This document shows positions 3,436-60,134 of a stretch of 64,000 bases of DNA, piece by piece. Under the pieces are notes generated by a model that saw only the letters and a program-made list of their open reading frames with translations, searched no databases and was not told the DNA's origin. Every line of letters begins with the position of its first letter. Position 1 is the stretch's first letter. The stretch lies in contig NZ_CP009516.1 in NCBI RefSeq assembly GCF_000970285.1, positions 62,001 to 126,000 on the forward strand, written 5' to 3'. This DNA is from Methanosarcina horonobensis HB-1 = JCM 15518. GTDB taxonomy: Archaea > Halobacteriota > Methanosarcinia > Methanosarcinales > Methanosarcinaceae. A program made the translations under genes and the position numbers.

Positions 3436-4160
3436 TTTAGCATTTCCATTATTTTCTTAATTTCGTCTACCGGAAGCTGACCTGGAGCCGCAGTTGCATC
3501 ACTTTCTATCGAACCATATGTCAGGACTGAACCATAGAGAGGGGCAACCACTCTTGTATGCTTTCCTTGCCTGCCCATTGCAATGGTACATACCGGTTTT
3601 CCTGCATTCTTAAAGTCCAGAGCAACTCTCAGCAGGTTAAGGGTGTCTTCCATTGATTGGGGCATGACTGCAAGTTTGGCAATATCTGCCCCTGTAAGAA
3701 ACATTTCCTCAAGAGTTGTCCTCATATCCTGAAGAGAAGGAGTTTTTAAAAAGTCGTGGGAAGAGACGATTACGGTTTTTCCTTGGTCTTTAGCCGCTTT
3801 TATAACTTTATCTCTTTCTTTCCTGCCGGCAGAGAGCTCGATGTCAATAGCATCCGGACCATCTTTAAAAGAAAGGAGGCCTGTAAGAAGTCCTGTTCTA
3901 TCTTCTTCTTTTCCTTCCCACTTTCCTCCTTCTGCCACGGAACGGTTAGTAACGAGTACAGGAAGCCCGGTTTCGGATTTTATTTTACTTATTGTTTCTG
4001 CAGCTTTTTCCAGGTCCCTTATTCCCAGTAAATCCAGCCGGATTTCGAGAATATCAGCTCCTTTTTCGGCTGCCTTTTTTGAAGCTTCAAGAGGTTTTTC
4101 AAGAATTACTGCAACAACTGCAGCCTTTCTTTCAAGGTCAAATGAGCCTATTTGAGTCAT
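3432..4160 (-). CDS. aroD: 3-dehydroquinate dehydratase, type I
   Basis: Dehydrates 3-dehydroquinate to 3-dehydroshikimate through a Schiff base. The TIM-barrel sequence of 242 residues shows the conserved EIRLD strand near residue 39, catalytic His135 in VSSHDF, and the Schiff-base Lys162 in AKLAVMPQ. The 3' end overlaps the aroE start by 4 bp. Upstream, an 11-bp tandem repeat fills most of the 99-bp gap to the archaeal DHQ synthase gene. Confidence 0.95.
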   Translation of the reverse strand: MTQIGSFDLERKAAVVAVILEKPLEASKKAAEKGADILEIRLDLLGIRDLEKAAETISKIKSETGLPVLVTNRSVAEGGKWEGKEEDRTGLLTGLLSFKDGPDAIDIELSAGRKERDKVIKAAKDQGKTVIVSSHDFLKTPSLQDMRTTLEEMFLTGADIAKLAVMPQSMEDTLNLLRVALDFKNAGKPVCTIAMGRQGKHTRVVAPLYGSVLTYGSIESDATAAPGQLPVDEIKKIMEMLK

Positions 4161-51797: not shown

Positions 51798-52877
51798 ATG
51801 TCCTTCCCAGGCATCCCGCTTCCCCTAAAAACAGAACATTCTGCCAGAGACCGCCTCTACTGGAACTTCTTCAATATGATTCCCTTCCTGATCGGTTCAA
51901 TTGCAATTGCCAGGGACTCGATCAAATGGGTAGCAGTTTACATAGGAATAGCTCTCTTTTTCTTTCTGGTAATCGAATTTCGCTTTGCCTGCACCCACTG
52001 CCTTTATTACATCAGGAGCAAGGGCTGCGTAAAGTGCATGATGCTTTCTGGAGTGCCAAAGATTTTCAAAGCCCGTCCCGGACCTCACAGCCCTTTTGAA
52101 AAAGCAATGACTGTGCTTGGGGCTCTGCCTATGTTTTTCTTTCCGGTTTACTGGCTGGTCAGGGACCCTATGCTACTGGGGGCCTATATTGTAGCCTGGG
52201 CACTCTTCTTTCTGACCGCCCGCCGGTACGAGTGCGTAAGGTGCCTTAACTTTGAGTGCCCTATGAACCGGGTGCCTGCAGACATGAAGAAAGAATTTGA
52301 GAAAAGGGATGACCGTTCAGAGAAGATTGAACTTTCAGGAAGGGGCTTTCTGGTGACAGGTTCAGGCAGATGTGCCTCCCTTAAAATGGAGCACGAATTT
52401 AAGGATTTTCTCTACTGGAACTTTGTAACTCTAACTATTTTATTTTCAGCGGGGCTTGCGATAGGCATCAGTTCAACCGGCTGGCTGCTTGCCTATATTT
52501 TCACAGTCTTTTTTCATTTCAATATTCTGGAGCAGCGTTTTTTCTGCACTCACTGCCCTTATTATCCTGCGGAAGGAAAAAAATTGAGGTGCATGATGAA
52601 CTGGGGTTGGCCCAAACACTTCAAGTCAAGTCCGTATCCTCCGGGTAAATTCGATCTTGCTATTACATCTCTTGGATTCATAATCGTAATTCTCTTTCCA
52701 CTTCCCTGGCTATTGAAAGTACCATTCTTGCTGGGAACTTATCTGGTTTCCATATTGATTTTCTTACTGACAATATGGCGGTATGAGTGTCCACACTGTA
52801 TCTATTTTGGGTGCCCTTTTAACAGAGTATCGGCTGAAGTGAGGAAAGAGTTTGAGAAGGAAAAAGTGAGTAAATGA
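51798..52877 (+). CDS. Internally duplicated, cysteine-rich membrane protein of unknown function
   Basis: 359 residues made of two homologous halves (about 15-175 and 198-355). Each half has two membrane hairpins around a CTHC motif (65-68; 250-253), a CMM motif, and a closing RYEC-xxC-xxxxC-P-x-NRV block (Cys146/149/154; Cys331/334/339). The cysteines are positioned like ligands for Fe-S clusters or metals next to the membrane, hinting at electron transfer or metal sensing. I do not recognise a characterised family. It starts at ATG 51798 and stands alone. Confidence 0.85.
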   Translation: MSFPGIPLPLKTEHSARDRLYWNFFNMIPFLIGSIAIARDSIKWVAVYIGIALFFFLVIEFRFACTHCLYYIRSKGCVKCMMLSGVPKIFKARPGPHSPFEKAMTVLGALPMFFFPVYWLVRDPMLLGAYIVAWALFFLTARRYECVRCLNFECPMNRVPADMKKEFEKRDDRSEKIELSGRGFLVTGSGRCASLKMEHEFKDFLYWNFVTLTILFSAGLAIGISSTGWLLAYIFTVFFHFNILEQRFFCTHCPYYPAEGKKLRCMMNWGWPKHFKSSPYPPGKFDLAITSLGFIIVILFPLPWLLKVPFLLGTYLVSILIFLLTIWRYECPHCIYFGCPFNRVSAEVRKEFEKEKVSK

Positions 52878-53383
52878 GACAAGGAGGGGTTTAAAGGATT
52901 AGGAGAAATTTAAGGGATTATTACTGTGTTATACTCTGTACCACTGTACCACACCGTGTTTCTCTTATTCATTTCCTTTTTTTCGCATTGAGCCAATTTT
53001 TCCTGTCACTCATATTAAAAAATTAGAGGATTTAGAACTTCGATAGCATGCAGTGTATAATGTAGATGATTTTTCCTTTTTTCTATATGTTTTGATAGAA
53101 ATTCTAATTGTCTTCAAAACAAAAACTATTTATTATATTACTAGGAAATAGGTTACCGTCTTCCTATCCCCTGTGCTGGGAATACTCCGGAAAATCGATA
53201 ATGCAGAAATTTTCTGAAAACCATCAGTCTACCGTAAAAACGCAAAAATTCTCTAGAAAACAGCTTCATTACCGTTTTCCAATTTCAGTAACTGTATATC
53301 TATTTAATAACTGAATATTCTTTTATATCATTATGTTTATCCGAACATAATGATTAAACTGTAAAAAGTCTGTAGGGATTTCT
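52878..53383 (+). promoter_or_regulatory. Upstream region of the transporter operon, with TATA box and perfect inverted repeat
   Basis: TTTTATAT (53321-53328) is the likely TATA box. It abuts a perfect 10-bp inverted repeat, TCATTATGTT (53328-53337) and AACATAATGA (53344-53353), around TATCCG. The repeat would cover the transcription start, so a repressor bound there would block the operon. AGGGA (53374-53378) is the ribosome site of the first gene. The rest of this 500-bp stretch has no convincing gene; an open frame at 53108-53314 lacks a ribosome site and recognisable features. Confidence 0.6.
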
Positions 53384-54496
53384 ATGCGTGGAAAAATAAG
53401 TACAATATTGATACTCTCTCTGCTGGTTCTGGCTGTTGCTTCCTGTGGGTGTGCAGAAAGTACGGGCCAGCAGGCTGTTCCGAACTCAAGCTCCGTGCTT
53501 CAGAGTTCAGATACCGTGCAGATTACCGACATGCTGGGAAGGCAGTTAACTGTTCCAGAATATATTTCCTCTGTCGTAGCCACTTCTCCTCCATCTACTA
53601 TTCTTGTTTATATGCTCGCGCCGGATAAACTTGCAGGCTGGAATTTTAAAAATAATTTTACCCAACCTTTTATGGATGAAAATTACACAAGTCTGCCCGT
53701 AATAGGGGGCTGGTTCGGGACCCAGACAGGGAACTATGAAACCATAATCAACATGGATCCTGACATTGTAATTGAAGGGTACACCACTGACGGACAAATC
53801 GATGAAGCCATAGAACGCAGGCAGGAAAGTTTTGGCAGCATTCCGGTGGTTGCCATTGATGATTCTATTATCTTCGTGACAAAATCCGATCCTACTATCG
53901 AATACGCAGGTAAGCTGCTTGACTGTGAAGCTCAGGCGGAAAAACTGATCGAGTTTCGCAGTTCAATCCTCAATGAGATCAACAGCACTGTAAAAGATAT
54001 TCCCGAAGATGAAAAAGTACGGGTTTACTATGCCGAAGGCCCAAAAGGCCTGATGACCGACCCATCAGGTTCTCAGCACTCCCAGGTCATTGATATTTGC
54101 GGGGGCATCAATGTTGCCGACTGTCCTCTTACTCCGGGGAACGGCATGACCCAGGTTTCAATAGAGCAGGTAATAGAATGGAACCCTGAGGTAATCATCA
54201 CTTCCAATCCGCAGTTCTATTCAACGGTGTACTCTGACTCTCTCTGGGTAAGTGTGGATGCTGTTAAAAACAAACGGGTGTACCTTGCTCCTCAGAATCC
54301 TTTCTGCTGGATTGACAGGCCCCAGGGTCCTCATCTCATTATCGGAACTGCCTGGACTGCAAAAATGCTGTATCCGGACCTTTTCACAGATATGGATCTC
54401 TCCGAGCTGACCCGCGAGTTCTACTCGGAATTCTTCCACTACGATCTCACGGATGAAGAACTGAACACGCTCCTTAACCCTGCAGCAGAGGCCTGA
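53384..54496 (+). CDS. ABC transporter substrate-binding lipoprotein (FecB/BtuF-type helical-backbone)
   Basis: 370 residues. Signal peptide and lipobox (LAVASC, Cys21), then a Ser-rich linker. The type III binding fold starts at QITDMLGRQLTVPE and VVATSPPSTILVYML, continues with MDPDIVIEGY, has a long central helix (residues ~175-200) and ends with VSIEQVIEWNPEVIITS, RVYLAPQNPF and IGTAWTAKMLYPDLF. Such proteins bind iron chelates, heme, cobamides or similar compounds outside the membrane. The C-terminal FYSEFFHYDLT ending is shared with the fused domain of the radical-SAM protein two genes later. Confidence 0.92.
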   Translation: MRGKISTILILSLLVLAVASCGCAESTGQQAVPNSSSVLQSSDTVQITDMLGRQLTVPEYISSVVATSPPSTILVYMLAPDKLAGWNFKNNFTQPFMDENYTSLPVIGGWFGTQTGNYETIINMDPDIVIEGYTTDGQIDEAIERRQESFGSIPVVAIDDSIIFVTKSDPTIEYAGKLLDCEAQAEKLIEFRSSILNEINSTVKDIPEDEKVRVYYAEGPKGLMTDPSGSQHSQVIDICGGINVADCPLTPGNGMTQVSIEQVIEWNPEVIITSNPQFYSTVYSDSLWVSVDAVKNKRVYLAPQNPFCWIDRPQGPHLIIGTAWTAKMLYPDLFTDMDLSELTREFYSEFFHYDLTDEELNTLLNPAAEA

Positions 54497-54498
54497 AC

Positions 54499-55122
54499 AT
54501 GGACGAAAAGGGCAAATCTCCGGGTTTTCCTTATATTGCGGAGCATATTTTCGCTCCCATTTACCCCGTAATAGCAGCTCATATCGTCAAAGAAAGCGGG
54601 ATAAAACGGGGCATTTGCCTGGACCTGGGATGCGGTATCGCATCCCTGGGGATCGCTGTTGCGGAACTCACGGATATGCAGGTTTATGGGGTTGATTTCT
54701 CAACGGAGATGTGCAGGCTTTCTAAGGACAAAGCTCACCGCTACTGCCTTTCAGGTAAAGTTATTCCTTTACAGGCTGATGTCCACCTGCTCCCCTTCAG
54801 GGAAAACTGTGCAGACCTGATAGTAAGCCGCGGCTCTGTATTTTTCTGGAAAGATCTGCCTGTGGCTTTCAGGGAAATTTCCCGTATCCTTGCTCCGGGG
54901 GGGCAGGCCTGGATAGGGGGCGGTTTCGGCACAAAAGAATTGAAGGCCATGATTTCTGAAAAAATGGTCGAAATCGACCCGGACTGGCATACCGCTTCAA
55001 AAAAGCGCCTCAGCTCGGAAAATCTTCGGGCTATGCAGGAAGCCGGGAGGCAGACTGAAATTCCCTATCGTGTAGTCCAGGACGATTCGGGCTTCTGGGT
55101 GATCCTGAGCAAGGATGAGTAA
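54499..55122 (+). CDS. Class I SAM-dependent methyltransferase (transporter operon)
   Basis: 207 residues. Motif I ICLDLGCGIASLGIAV at 39-54, YGVDFSTEMCRLSKDK as motif II, PLQADVHLLPF and VSRGSVFFWKDLP in the substrate region. It begins 2 bp after the substrate-binding-protein stop, so the two are tightly linked. No membrane segment. It resembles small-molecule methyltransferases of the UbiE/COG2226 type; the substrate is unknown but by context is probably the imported compound or something derived from it. Confidence 0.9.
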   Translation: MDEKGKSPGFPYIAEHIFAPIYPVIAAHIVKESGIKRGICLDLGCGIASLGIAVAELTDMQVYGVDFSTEMCRLSKDKAHRYCLSGKVIPLQADVHLLPFRENCADLIVSRGSVFFWKDLPVAFREISRILAPGGQAWIGGGFGTKELKAMISEKMVEIDPDWHTASKKRLSSENLRAMQEAGRQTEIPYRVVQDDSGFWVILSKDE

Positions 55123-55136
55123 GGGAGGTTAAAAAA

Positions 55137-56909
55137 ATGCAATGTAATGTGTGTGAGTTCGGGTGCGAAATCAATGAATACAGCAGGGGCAGGTGCGGGA
55201 CTTATGTCTATACCGGCGATACCATAGTCCAGGACCCTGGCATGGGATATCTTGGAGCATATCCTGTTTCCATAGAAACTATTCCTTTGCTTCATTATTA
55301 TTCCTCAGGTAAGTTCCTCCAGGTCTTCAGTACTGGCTGCAATTTCCAGTGTTCCGGGTGTGTGGCTCGCTTGCTGGCCTCAGGCAAACCTCTCTCCCAT
55401 TCCACCTTAACTCCTTCCCAGGTCGTGGAAAGAGCCCTGCAGCAGGAGTGCCTGGGCGTGGTTTCTACACTTAATGAACCTGCTGCAAATTATTACCTCT
55501 TCAGGGATCTTGCAGTGCAGGCAAAAGAACAGGGTTTGCTCGCAGGCTGTTCCACAAACTGCTATTTCACAGATGAGACTTTGAACAAGCTTGGGCAGAT
55601 TGTGGATTTCATGAATGTCGGAATCAAAGGTTATTCTGACAGGAGTTACAGAAGCTGCGGAGTCCCTTCATCAGCTCCTGTTTTCCGCAACATTTCCCGG
55701 CTTTTTGACATGGGAGTGCATGTTGAAATCTCAGTTGTTTATTCCAGAGGAAATGAGGAAGATGTGATAAAGGTTGCAGAAGCAGTATCAGATATCTCCC
55801 CTACCATTCCGGTTCAGGTCATGAGGTTCATTCCCTTCGGGGACGCTCCTATTGAGCTTGAACCTTCCATCGGAGAGGCGGAGAGCCTGTGCACCTCTCT
55901 GCGTAAACACATAGATCATGTCTACCTCTTCAATTCTCCTGGTACGGAACTATTGAACACATACTGTCCTGAATGCGGAAGCCTCCTGGCAGAGCGGGAA
56001 TTCTACGGGCCCATGGGTTCAAGGCCTGTAAAACCCTGGGTAACTTACACATGTGATTGCGGGAAGACTGTGCCGGTTAAAGGGATAACTGCAACCGAAT
56101 GCTTCAATGAGGAAGGTTTCATGGGCGGGTACAGGATAAGCCGGGCTTTCGGAATGGTCCATGGAGTGCTCACATGTCTGGAAGTATTGGACGATTCCAG
56201 GTTAATAGACACATGGGAGAAAATCTCCGATTCCGGAACCCTTATGCAGGTTCACCATATGATCCAGCAGCCATACGCTTATCTTGAGTTTGTCAGGCTT
56301 ATCGCTGAAAAGGCAGGCGAGCCGGAAAAAGGAGAAGAACTTATTTCTTTTATCCGTACGCGTCTGGAGCTTGTCCATGCCCTTGCAGCAAAAAACAGTG
56401 GTCATAAGGTGTATTATTGTATGGGCTCTCCTCTCTTTGCCCTGAACGCTGGAAGAATGGAAAACAACCTTGTGACATTCTCAGGGAGCATGAGCATCAA
56501 TAAGCAGCTTCAAAAGGAAGGAAAGCCGGGTGTAAATGTTTCTCCTTCTTTTATCAATGAAAATAACCCGGAAACCATTTTCATCTCCGGCTTCCTTTCC
56601 CGACCCCTTGACGAGTTCTATGCCCTGTGCAGGCAATACGGCATAGAGGCGGATGCTGTAAAACAGAAGCGAATTTATGCAGTCCCGCCCTCCTGGGATT
56701 TCGGAAATCCTCGCTGGATACTGGGGCTCATGTACATAGCAGATAAACTATATCCCGGAGATTCAGGAATCGACCTTAAAAGGGAAGCAGATGAATTCTA
56801 CCTGCAGTTCTACAGGATGCCGTTTGGGGAATCCAAATCTAACAGGTCTTTTCACAGGCCAACTTCCGGGATCTGGCCCCTACATGTGACGAGGTGCACT
56901 CATGCCTGA
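55137..56909 (+). CDS. Radical-SAM protein fused to a substrate-binding-protein-like C-terminal domain
   Basis: 590 residues, no signal peptide. N-terminal Cys motif CNVCEFGC with RGRCG resembles the activating-enzyme class COG1180. The SAM cluster is CNFQCSGC (Cys68, 72, 75). The TIM-barrel core continues to about 260 (VVSTLNEPAANYY, FMNVGIKGYSDRSY). Two zinc-ribbon-like Cys pairs follow (CPECGS, CDCG, ~280-312). Residues ~330-575 resemble the binding-protein fold (a long helix around EELISFIRTRLELVHAL, NNPETIFISGFLS, KRIYAVPPSWDFG, ILGLMYIADKLYPG), parallel to the lipoprotein two genes upstream. It overlaps the permease gene by 8 bp. Function unknown. Confidence 0.85.
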   Translation: MQCNVCEFGCEINEYSRGRCGTYVYTGDTIVQDPGMGYLGAYPVSIETIPLLHYYSSGKFLQVFSTGCNFQCSGCVARLLASGKPLSHSTLTPSQVVERALQQECLGVVSTLNEPAANYYLFRDLAVQAKEQGLLAGCSTNCYFTDETLNKLGQIVDFMNVGIKGYSDRSYRSCGVPSSAPVFRNISRLFDMGVHVEISVVYSRGNEEDVIKVAEAVSDISPTIPVQVMRFIPFGDAPIELEPSIGEAESLCTSLRKHIDHVYLFNSPGTELLNTYCPECGSLLAEREFYGPMGSRPVKPWVTYTCDCGKTVPVKGITATECFNEEGFMGGYRISRAFGMVHGVLTCLEVLDDSRLIDTWEKISDSGTLMQVHHMIQQPYAYLEFVRLIAEKAGEPEKGEELISFIRTRLELVHALAAKNSGHKVYYCMGSPLFALNAGRMENNLVTFSGSMSINKQLQKEGKPGVNVSPSFINENNPETIFISGFLSRPLDEFYALCRQYGIEADAVKQKRIYAVPPSWDFGNPRWILGLMYIADKLYPGDSGIDLKREADEFYLQFYRMPFGESKSNRSFHRPTSGIWPLHVTRCTHA

Positions 56910-57921
56910 ATGCAGGTATCCCCGCATTGCTCTTGTGTATATGCTGCCAGTAGCCTTACTCATAGGCTCCCTTTTTGTAGGGAGATATCAGACTCCTGTC
57001 TCGGCGGTTGTGGATGAGAGTATGAAAGCTTTTTCATCTCTCTTTTTTGGCACTCCTGCTTCGGTTTCCACTCAACATACCGTACTGTTCAATGTAAGGC
57101 TGCCCAGGATACTTGCGGCTTTGCTTGTAGGAGCTGCACTTTCTACAGCAGGGGCATCTTTTCAGGGGATTTTTCGCAATCCTCTTGTCTCTCCCTATAT
57201 CCTTGGAGTGGGCGCAGGTGCGGGTTTCGGAGCCTGCCTGGCAATACTGCTCTGGAACAATTATCTGCTTATACAGCTGATGGCTTTTGCTTTCGGACTG
57301 CTGGCAATGTTTCTTGCCATAAGTATGGGTAAAGCCAGTAAAGGTACGGGAACTCTGGTCTTCGTACTTTCAGGAGTAATCGTGAACTCTATTTTCACGG
57401 CGCTTACTTCACTGGTAAAATATGTGGCAGACCCTTATGATGAACTTCCCGCAATAGTATTCTGGCTCATGGGAAGCCTTGCTGCTGTCAGGTACGGAGA
57501 TCTGCTCTACATACTGCTACCCATGTTTGTTGGGGCTCTGGTGTTGTTTCTTCTCAGGTGGCGTCTCAATATCCTGTCCCTGGGAGATGAGGAAGCTAAA
57601 GCCCTCGGGATGAACGTGGAAAAAATGCGCCTGATCGTCATTGTTTGTGCAACCCTTTTGACTTCAGCGGCGGTCAGCATCAGCGGTGTGATTGGCTGGG
57701 TAGGGCTGGTCGTACCTCATATCTCAAGGATGATAGTTGGTCCGAATTACAGCCGCCTGCTGCCAATGAGCATGGTTATCGGGGCCTCATTTATGCTGCT
57801 TGTGGATGATCTCTCAAGGACGATTGTTGCTACGGAGATTCCCCTTGGGATTCTCACTTCCCTTGTAGGTGCTCCTTTGTTTGCATATCTAATTCGAAGG
57901 GGGCGCATGGGATGGAACTGA
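56902..57921 (+). CDS. ABC transporter permease, FecCD/BtuC family
   Basis: 339 residues with nine to ten transmembrane helices. Family signatures are VRLPRILAALLVGAALSTAG, QGIFRNPLVSPYILGVGAGAG, ALGMNVEKMR (coupling helix) and GVIGWVGLVVPHISRMIVG, with ATEIPLGILTSLVGAPLFAYL at the end. Moves metal-siderophore, cobamide or heme-like cargo handed over by the lipoprotein. Overlaps the radical-SAM gene upstream and the ATPase gene downstream. Confidence 0.95.
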   Translation: MPECRYPRIALVYMLPVALLIGSLFVGRYQTPVSAVVDESMKAFSSLFFGTPASVSTQHTVLFNVRLPRILAALLVGAALSTAGASFQGIFRNPLVSPYILGVGAGAGFGACLAILLWNNYLLIQLMAFAFGLLAMFLAISMGKASKGTGTLVFVLSGVIVNSIFTALTSLVKYVADPYDELPAIVFWLMGSLAAVRYGDLLYILLPMFVGALVLFLLRWRLNILSLGDEEAKALGMNVEKMRLIVIVCATLLTSAAVSISGVIGWVGLVVPHISRMIVGPNYSRLLPMSMVIGASFMLLVDDLSRTIVATEIPLGILTSLVGAPLFAYLIRRGRMGWN

Positions 57922-58721
57922 TGCTGGAAGTGAATTCACTTGCCTTCTCCTATGGAAACGGCCCGGTGTTTGAGAATGTATCTTTCTCGCTAAAAAAAGG
58001 CGAGGTTATGTGCATCCTGGGCCCGAACGGGGCGGGCAAATCTACACTGATCAAGTGCATTGCGGGAATTTTCAAACCTGCTGCAGGTTCTATCCGAATT
58101 CTGGGAGAGGATACGGCTTCTCTCGGAGAAAAGGGAATTGCCCGGCATATTGGCTATGTGCCGCAGCAGAATGAGGTGGTTTTTCCTTTTACTGTGCTGG
58201 ATTTTGTGGTAATGGGCCGGGCTCCTCACCTCTCCATGTTTTCATCCCCCAGCGCAGAGGATATGGAGATTGCAAGGGAATCGCTTGAGGTGATTGGACT
58301 TTCTGACCTTGCGGAAAGGCCGGTCTCCAGTCTCAGCGGCGGGCAGAGCCAGATGGTACTGATCGCCCGGGCTCTTGTCCAGAAACCTTCTCTGCTTTTG
58401 CTGGATGAGCCTACTTCCCACCTTGATTTTGGCAACCAGGTCCTTGTACTGGAGGCCGTTCAGAGACTTGCTTCCCTGGGGATGTCGATTGTGATGAACA
58501 CTCATATGCCGGACCACGCTTTCCTGGTAGGCAGCAGAGCTGCAGCCCTGACAGGGGGCAAGCTGGTTGCGCTGGGAGAAGTTGAAACGGTTGTAACCGG
58601 CAAGATAATGTCTTCGGTTTACAGGGTAAAGGTAGCTGTCCGGGAAATCGAAGATATGAAAAGGAAAGTGTGTCTGCCCTTACGGGGGAATCAGTATATT
58701 GAAACTGAATTAATACATTGA
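57912..58721 (+). CDS. ABC transporter ATPase, FepC/BtuD family
   Basis: 269 residues. Walker A GPNGAGKST (37-45), Q-loop YVPQQNEV, signature LSGGQ (141-145), Walker B LLLLDEP (161-167) and switch His in NTHMPDHAF. It energises the FecCD-type permease encoded just upstream (10-bp overlap). Last gene of the operon. Confidence 0.96.
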   Translation: MELMLEVNSLAFSYGNGPVFENVSFSLKKGEVMCILGPNGAGKSTLIKCIAGIFKPAAGSIRILGEDTASLGEKGIARHIGYVPQQNEVVFPFTVLDFVVMGRAPHLSMFSSPSAEDMEIARESLEVIGLSDLAERPVSSLSGGQSQMVLIARALVQKPSLLLLDEPTSHLDFGNQVLVLEAVQRLASLGMSIVMNTHMPDHAFLVGSRAAALTGGKLVALGEVETVVTGKIMSSVYRVKVAVREIEDMKRKVCLPLRGNQYIETELIH

Positions 58722-58847: not shown

Positions 58848-60134
58848 ATGACCTTAAAAAGATTTAACGCTGTAGCTCTGGCTATCTTTGTGCTAACGCT
58901 TATTCTGGCGCTGGCAGGAACGTGTACGGCTGCGTCGGTTGAGATAAGAGGCAATCCCTTTGATACCGGAAGTACGGATGCGCAGAATATTTCCTGGGAT
59001 TTCAGAAGCTTCGGAGCTTTTTTCTTCAGTGCAAATAAGTACAGTAATTTCCTGAACGGGTCAGGAGAGCATCTTTATTTTGAGGATAGCGGGAACAGTC
59101 CTTCCATCGGGAAAGATAATCCTTCAGCCAGTACAATCGATGAAGGTGAATTGATTTACACTACCAGACAGCTCCCTTCGAAGTATAAGGTATTCTCTGA
59201 AGAAGAAAACGTTACAAAGGTATCTTTCTTTTATACGCTGCCACTGTTTGGTAAGTCGTACTGTGCTATTGACAATGATGCAACAAATCTCGCCAGGATA
59301 CTGTACCAGCAGGATGAGAGTGAAAAGAAAACACTCAGGGCAGGAGAGACCTGGGATATTGCCGGAGGGTACAGCCTTACTCTGAACGGGATTGATATTG
59401 AAGGCGATAAATGCTATTTTTCGCTTTACAGGAACAGTACGGAGCTGGAAACTGCGGTAATCTCCACTGATGGCACTATAGATGACAGGATATTTACTGC
59501 AGAAGATGAATTCGGGGACAATGCTTCACATATTTATTTTTTGACCCTTGTAGATTCCGTTTTTGCAAGTGCTGATGCCGATTTTGCAGTGTTCAAATAC
59601 ACCTGGCTGATAGATAAGGACAAGCCTCTTTCCATCGACTCCGGGGATGAATTTGGCAGTTTTGAAGTAGACCAGGCTCTTGAAAACCTGATAGTAATGT
59701 CAAACGCCGACATAATAACAATCAATGTCGATGCTGATAGGAAGACCAACATAACAGACGAGTGGTATTTCAAGACCTCTGATGCGGGAAAAGGAAGCAA
59801 TGGAGGATACGTAATCTACCCCGCAAAAACAATTATTGTCGAAGAACAAAAGCCCGGAAGTTCAGGAACCGGAGCTGCAGGAACTAATACTTCAGCCAGC
59901 ACATCAGACGGCGTTCAAATGCAGGAGGGAAATAGCACTCAGACAAAAGCAATAACCGAAAACACCAGTGAGAAAAGCGAAGAGGTTTACAGCACTTCGT
60001 CTGAAGTCCAGAATGAAGCAGAAATGCCTGTAGCAGCCAGCAGTGAAGCTGCAGCAAGCTCTGGTTTCGGAGGATTTCTGGCTGTCTTCTCTCTGGGAAG
60101 TATAGCTTATTGTTTCAAAAGGAGTCGGATTTAA
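58848..60134 (+). CDS. S-layer-type duplication-domain protein (DUF1608, single copy) with C-terminal membrane anchor
   Basis: 428 residues. A signal peptide (1-29, cleavage near TCTAAS) is followed by one DUF1608-like domain (about 30-315) with VEIRGNPFDTGS, SFGAFFFSANKYSNFL, DEGELIYTTRQLP, LRAGETWDIAGGYSLTL and WLIDKDKPLSIDSGDEFGSFEV, as in Methanosarcina S-layer proteins. Then comes a Ser/Thr/Glu-rich stalk and a terminal helix (FGGFLAVFSLGSIAYCF) with a basic end. The major S-layer protein has two such domains; this has one, so it is probably a minor envelope component. It lies 126 bp after the transporter operon, whose upstream motif GAACATA recurs at 58806. Confidence 0.88.
   Translation: MTLKRFNAVALAIFVLTLILALAGTCTAASVEIRGNPFDTGSTDAQNISWDFRSFGAFFFSANKYSNFLNGSGEHLYFEDSGNSPSIGKDNPSASTIDEGELIYTTRQLPSKYKVFSEEENVTKVSFFYTLPLFGKSYCAIDNDATNLARILYQQDESEKKTLRAGETWDIAGGYSLTLNGIDIEGDKCYFSLYRNSTELETAVISTDGTIDDRIFTAEDEFGDNASHIYFLTLVDSVFASADADFAVFKYTWLIDKDKPLSIDSGDEFGSFEVDQALENLIVMSNADIITINVDADRKTNITDEWYFKTSDAGKGSNGGYVIYPAKTIIVEEQKPGSSGTGAAGTNTSASTSDGVQMQEGNSTQTKAITENTSEKSEEVYSTSSEVQNEAEMPVAASSEAAASSGFGGFLAVFSLGSIAYCFKRSRI

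Follow-up and report, generated by a model that had tools for sequence, protein, structure and literature searches.

A FecBCD-type operon of Methanosarcina horonobensis with a radical SAM enzyme fused to half a binding protein is very probably linked to molybdenum and tungsten

The window analysed here, 64,000 nt of the genome of Methanosarcina horonobensis HB-1 = JCM 15518 (NZ_CP009516.1, positions 62,001 to 126,000 of the forward strand), contains an operon in which a FecBCD-type importer is combined with a methyltransferase and with a radical S-adenosylmethionine (SAM) enzyme that carries half of a binding protein. The operon is very probably linked to molybdenum (Mo) and tungsten (W), because two unrelated regulatory systems, a protein operator and a riboswitch for the molybdenum cofactor (Moco), agree with the gene neighbourhood. 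These three lines of evidence are largely independent. For the more specific proposal that a Mo/W compound is imported and then processed, the chances are about even.

The operon is made up of five open reading frames (ORFs) on the + strand. The first (53384-54496) encodes the substrate-binding protein (SBP), a lipoprotein with a signal peptide, the lipobox ASCG and a Peripla_BP_2 domain (Pfam PF01497, 1e-20). It is followed by a class I SAM-dependent methyltransferase (54499-55122; PF08241, 1e-19), the 590-residue fusion of a radical SAM enzyme to a binding-protein helical backbone and C-lobe (55137-56909; PF04055, 4e-11), a FecCD-family permease (56902-57921; PF01032, 1e-90) and an ATP-binding cassette (ABC) ATPase of the type II (FepC/BtuD/MolC) class (57912-58721; PF00005, 5e-36). 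Successive ORFs are spaced by +2, +14, -8 and -10 bp. A first-pass annotation, made from the DNA letters alone, had described a five-gene operon whose coordinates, gaps and overlaps all match the recomputed ORFs. Its label of a fusion is borne out as well: in the third protein a radical SAM domain (residues ~1-330) is followed by a stretch (residues ~380-563) with homology to the second half of FecB/MolA-type binding proteins.

A shared operator with Mo/W genes

The palindrome CATTATGTTTATCCGAACATAATG is located 55 bp 5' of the first gene (53329-53352, no strand assigned) and perfectly matches the consensus CRTTATGTTYNNNNRAACATAAYG. By shuffling, 0.01 such sites would be expected in the window. 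Most homologous operons of the family have kept the operator, at about -55 to -69 relative to the SBP gene. When the consensus was searched in the 5.0-Mb genome at ≤1 mismatch, four sites were found, three of them perfect and one with a single mismatch. One is the operon's own palindrome, one is upstream of a formylmethanofuran dehydrogenase (fmd) operon and one separates modABC from an fmdB-like fragment. Just past modC, the same genome also has a piece of the operon's lipoprotein gene (locus L151, 3640-4104). Copies of the lipoprotein gene with operators are also seen beside the fmd operon in two relatives (L187:4007-5113 and L188:3380-4486). The fourth site of the own genome, at 2244955 (L149:6956-6979), is upstream of genes for a Sta1-like regulator and ribonucleotide reductase, and the operator has the same position in a relative (L194:3999).

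Among 112 Methanosarcinaceae genomes, the real operator occurs one to seven times in 69, and a reversed control pattern has no match among the Methanosarcinaceae genomes listed. Twenty sites outside the operon were sampled: 13 are at mod/wtp, modD or fmd genes, three at other transporters of the FecBCD type, one of which is accompanied by an HmdB-like radical SAM gene, and two at S-layer genes, leaving two unexplained. A second copy of the fusion, about 70-77% identical, is divergent to operons of the nifH-nifI-nifD-G-K type in several Methanosarcina (loci L039, L040, L049, L052 and L062). In L040, VnfD and VnfK score over their cut-offs, identifying a vanadium (V) nitrogenase. Operator-like palindromes are present in the region shared by this second copy and the alternative nitrogenase operon.

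The own genome encodes one ModE-like protein, with a LysR-type helix-turn-helix and a TOBE/Mop part, whose gene adjoins a wtp-like transporter. Its Mop match is over the cut-off and its ModE_repress match below. Control of modABC and of the nitrogenase types by ModE has been reported in Methanosarcinales (PMC9765008). We infer that CATTATGTTTATCCGAACATAATG is the ModE box and that the operon would be induced at low Mo/W. The palindrome marks modABC, fmd, V-nitrogenase and the operon; the operon was not named as a member of the ModE regulon in the literature found. Outside the Methanosarcinaceae, a search of the loci for ModE-like palindromes turned up a single site close to a radical SAM gene (L123), and the operators of Methanomicrobiales may differ from the Methanosarcinaceae palindrome.

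Moco riboswitches and neighbouring genes

In the bacterial homologous loci the second regulatory system is encountered. Eight Moco riboswitches (RF01055) were found in seven of the 30 bacterial loci (535 kb), where 0.78 would be expected (P about 2e-6, or about 2e-5 without a near-duplicate locus). The expectation is based on the same genomes, in which 114.6 Mb contained 148 sites, with loci treated as independent. Most of the riboswitches are directly upstream of SBP, FecCD, TonB-receptor, radical SAM or HmdB-like genes; the exceptions are one that directly follows the fusion gene (L128) and the second L119 site, which comes after the operon. The 30 bacterial loci contained no cobalamin riboswitch. 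An Rfam scan of the window returned two tRNAs only, and in the Methanosarcina operon the protein operator seems to take the place of the bacterial riboswitch.

The neighbouring genes point in the same direction. By counts of similarity clusters with checked representatives, modA or modB genes are nearby in seven loci and moeA in three, while TonB receptors occur in six, DUF364 in 16 and HmdB-like radical SAM genes in five; xdhC recurs as well. In two Methanomicrobiales loci, the fusion gene has no FecBCD partners and is divergent to a modA/wtpC-type transporter. The L117 locus of Desulfosporosinus fructosivorans holds an array of xdhC followed by SBP-FecCD-ATPase-methyltransferase-NifDKH-like-fusion, with a further Moco riboswitch upstream of xdhC, just outside the locus. 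Its NifD-, NifK- and NifH-like genes (L117:6193-9902) lie between the methyltransferase and the fusion, and the D and K products are below the nitrogenase cut-offs. A link to the nitrogenase-like isethionate reductase NflBHDK (PMC11423573) was considered and rejected, as that system relies on SsuABC for transport and its radical SAM gene is another one, and among the homologous loci only L117 contains the NifDKH-like trio.

HmdB/BioB-like radical SAM genes with FecBCD-type transporters were observed under the same operator in L196 (4234-7906) and near Moco riboswitches in L106, L112, L119, L128 and L132. Such a pair may represent a second type of system of this kind.

Conservation of the gene set

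The gene arrangement cannot be put down to chance: those of the examined Methanosarcinaceae genera that have it keep it in synteny, even where identity falls to 46-50%. The fusion was found in 17 of 31 Methanosarcina genomes and in 34 of the 112 Methanosarcinaceae genomes. Full-length fusions, mostly at 41-48% identity, are also present in Methanomicrobiales, Methanolliviera, Desulfobacterota, Clostridia, Sporomusa, Deferribacteres and Geobacter, and the core gene set is kept in Methanomicrobiales, Desulfobacterota and Clostridia. Neighbours were counted with a simple ORF caller in one genome scan limited to 80 loci. Within ≤7 genes of the radical SAM gene, the 52 homologous loci with sufficient flank contain the SBP in 38 cases, the methyltransferase in 41, the permease in 40 and the ATPase in 43; all four partners are present in 31. 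The methyltransferase gene is directly next to the radical SAM gene in 54 of 78 loci. The first-pass annotation had proposed to look for such co-occurrence, and the genes were found to stay together both in Methanosarcinaceae and in the homologous loci.

A radical SAM barrel in the proposed place of a binding-protein lobe

The radical SAM motif of the fusion is C68-x3-C72-x2-C75. Further conserved cysteines are C3/C6/C10/C20 and C277/C280/C306/C308. The nearest curated model for the N-terminal part is TIGR04337 (AmmeMemoRadiSam), with 80 bits over residues 1-290. Membership of that family was rejected, as the cut-off is 220 bits. An AlphaFold2 model of the fusion (pLDDT 88.7, pTM 0.89) was compared with solved structures by Foldseek. 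One part retrieved the pyruvate formate-lyase (PFL)-activating enzyme (PFL-AE), NifB and MoaA, and the other part retrieved 4hn9, 4ovk, 4pag and MolA over about half their length. Residues 385-563 align to MolA 143-323 and to 4hn9 154-330, i.e. to the second half of these proteins. From the alignment with the operon's own lipoproteins, the fusion has the helical backbone and the C-lobe, and the N-lobe is missing. In the predicted arrangement, the SAM barrel would occupy the place of the missing N-lobe, and the C-lobe would close over the radical SAM active site. No signal peptide was found in the fusion, and the protein is therefore expected in the cytosol.

Importer proteins and methyltransferase

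The best solved relatives of the lipoprotein are 4pag (8e-57), 4ovk and MolA (3psa, 2e-26), and its conserved pattern is YYAEG...TDPxGSxH...WFDRPP. For the permease, the top NCBIfam scores are those of BtuC and F420-0 models, far below cut-off, and for the ATPase those of F420-0, corrinoid and heme ABC ATPases, every one of them below cut-off. None of the operon's proteins scored over the cut-off of the BtuF, BtuC, BtuD or heme models of NCBIfam.

The methyltransferase has the motif FAPIYPVIA at its N-terminus, which is conserved in orthologues. It reached no NCBIfam cut-off, the best curated names being far under theirs. The DVU_1556 methyltransferase family was rejected on this ground (39.9 bits vs a curated cut-off of 155).

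Proposed function and alternatives

The explanation that we somewhat favour is that chelated Mo/W is imported, its organic part is altered in the cytosol and the metal is thereby freed. The imported ligand is more likely a chelate than the bare oxyanion, because the own genome already encodes modABC plus a wtp-like transporter. Together with this, the presence of TonB receptors in diderms and the fusion of a binding lobe to the enzyme argue for chelated cargo and cytosolic processing; TonB receptors and DUF364 in 16 loci would both fit a chelate. In the proposed pathway, metal status would control the operon, and the lipoprotein, the FecCD permease and the ATPase would act together as a type II importer that brings in a compound containing Mo/W. 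Once in the cytosol, the compound would sit between the radical SAM barrel and the fused lobe. In ordinary binding proteins, the half that corresponds to this lobe closes over the ligand; the barrel would replace the other half. The 5'-deoxyadenosyl radical and the neighbouring methyltransferase could then modify the organic part, setting free the metal, which may be passed on to molybdopterin enzymes, e.g. formylmethanofuran dehydrogenase. That the ligand is a chelate and that it is opened by such chemistry are both predictions. For a methylation step in molybdopterin breakdown there is a precedent, by analogy only, in human TPMT, which forms urothione (PMC11514484).

Generalized over the homologous loci, the system may constitute a widespread anaerobic pathway in which metallophore- or pyranopterin-bound Mo/W is taken up and freed by a fusion that uses half a binding protein as substrate-clamping lid, with the methyltransferase maybe capping donor atoms. 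This broader formulation is tentative, its prospects being a little short of even. The idea of the first-pass annotation that a metal compound is imported and changed on entry fits these results and is strengthened by the fused lobe. Among the ligands that it had suggested, a metallophore may apply, but a tetrapyrrole or corrinoid is improbable.

Several observations weigh against chelate import with cytosolic release. The operator and the riboswitch answer to Mo/W status, which is no proof that Mo/W is the cargo. The conserved lipoprotein pattern does not simply match an oxyanion site, and the structure closest to the lipoprotein, 4pag, has to our knowledge no known ligand. In addition, the fusion lies beside a canonical Mo/W oxyanion transporter in L115 and L125, where a transporter-specific chelate is not needed, and L088, L097 and L101 have no transporter neighbour at all.

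The same Mo/W regulation would serve equally if the radical SAM enzyme and the methyltransferase were to build a secreted chelator (a molybdophore or tungstophore) that the transporter retrieves in loaded form. The extra methyltransferases, HmdB-like radical SAM genes and DUF364 of several loci do resemble a small-molecule pathway, and TonB receptors in diderms suit this explanation too. However, the archaeal operon contains no exporter, ligase, non-ribosomal peptide synthetase or precursor gene, DUF364 and HmdB-like genes are likewise missing from the Methanosarcina operon, and the lobe fused to the enzyme suggests an imported ligand as its target rather than a precursor. A biosynthetic role of this kind is considered unlikely. 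Nor is it probable that the transporter is a plain MolABC-like importer of molybdate or tungstate and that the two enzymes later make or remodel a cofactor of Mo/W or another metal. The presence of modABC and a wtp-like transporter in the same genome, with modABC in the same regulon, leaves less need for a further oxyanion importer, free oxyanions need no TonB receptors, and the homologous lobe ties the enzyme to the transporter's ligand. In favour of this explanation, MolBC-A is a type II importer, its MolA component binds both molybdate and tungstate (PMC4031551), MolA is related to the lipoprotein, and the fusion is also found beside modA/wtpC-type transporters and, in L117, beside NifDKH-like genes.

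Import of heme, cobamide or F430 with anaerobic breakdown or remodelling of the tetrapyrrole, as in HutW/ChuW, is very improbable. The transporter is of the FecBCD type, with a permease that scores best against BtuC and F420-0 models, and the accessible part of PMC10035031 offers a precedent for a radical SAM enzyme with heme uptake. These BtuC and F420-0 matches are, however, far below cut-off, the radical SAM domain is PFL-AE/AmmeMemo-like with no model of the HemN/HutW type appearing, cobalamin riboswitches are absent from the 30 bacterial loci, and regulation goes with Mo/W genes.

Comparison with known systems

The closest known transporter, MolBC-A of Haemophilus influenzae (HI1470-1472), shares with the operon the FecCD-type permease and type II ATPase, a related lipoprotein (MolA, see above) and the Mo/W regulatory context. 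It differs in that the accessible part of its literature mentions neither a methyltransferase nor a radical SAM gene alongside it. Moreover, the operon's lipoprotein is closer to 4pag and 4ovk than to MolA, and its binding of Mo/W is a prediction. In HutW/ChuW, a metal chelate enters through a FecBCD-type importer and a cytosolic radical SAM enzyme acts on it. The analogy to the operon is in outline only: the radical SAM enzyme of the operon is of another type (PFL-AE/NifB/MoaA-like fold), has neither a HemN-like domain nor a heme context, includes a binding-protein lobe and goes with Mo/W regulation. The AmmeMemoRadiSam family resembles the N-terminal part of the fusion, including the N-terminal cysteines, but the fusion is far below its cut-off and has the additional lobe. 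AMMECR1/Memo partners were not noticed in the loci examined, in which no systematic search for them was made.

DUF364 (PF04016, 'putative heavy-metal chelation') was placed in 2010 in the context of tungstate, molybdate and vanadium transport and ABC transporters, and a pterin- or siderophore-like product was proposed, according to the accessible text of PMC2954201. This domain neighbours the fusion in the 16 homologous loci mentioned, whereas the archaeal operon is without it, and the accessible text does not describe the radical SAM fusion. For the five-gene system as a whole, literature searches found no published description, as the first-pass annotation had supposed.

Methanogens, acetogens, sulfate reducers and syntrophs cannot do without Mo and W, which are scarce and bound in sulfidic or anoxic settings. 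In the literature, no account was found of anaerobes that take up chelated Mo/W by a dedicated system and open the complex with an enzyme. A radical SAM barrel that replaces one lobe of a periplasmic-type binding protein suggests a route by which a recognition module could become an enzyme lid. With the regulatory evidence, a previously unassigned operon of many anaerobes becomes a hypothesis that can be tested in a methanogen amenable to genetics.

Genes adjoining the operon

The upstream gene at 51798-52877 encodes a membrane-like protein of 359 residues that is internally duplicated and contains cysteines. A Pfam search of this product gave no match, and the gene is beside the operon in several Methanosarcina. 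Downstream, at a distance of 126 bp, is a gene for an S-layer domain protein (58848-60134, +; PF07752, 1e-48; TIGR01567, 1.5e-66), a candidate sixth member. It probably belongs to the operon, and we infer its tie to the system. An S-layer gene also adjoins the operon in L035, L036, L037, L044, L053, L058, L065 and L066. In Methanolobus-like genomes, the Mo/W operator is found upstream of S-layer domain genes, at around position 4030 of both L195 and L201.

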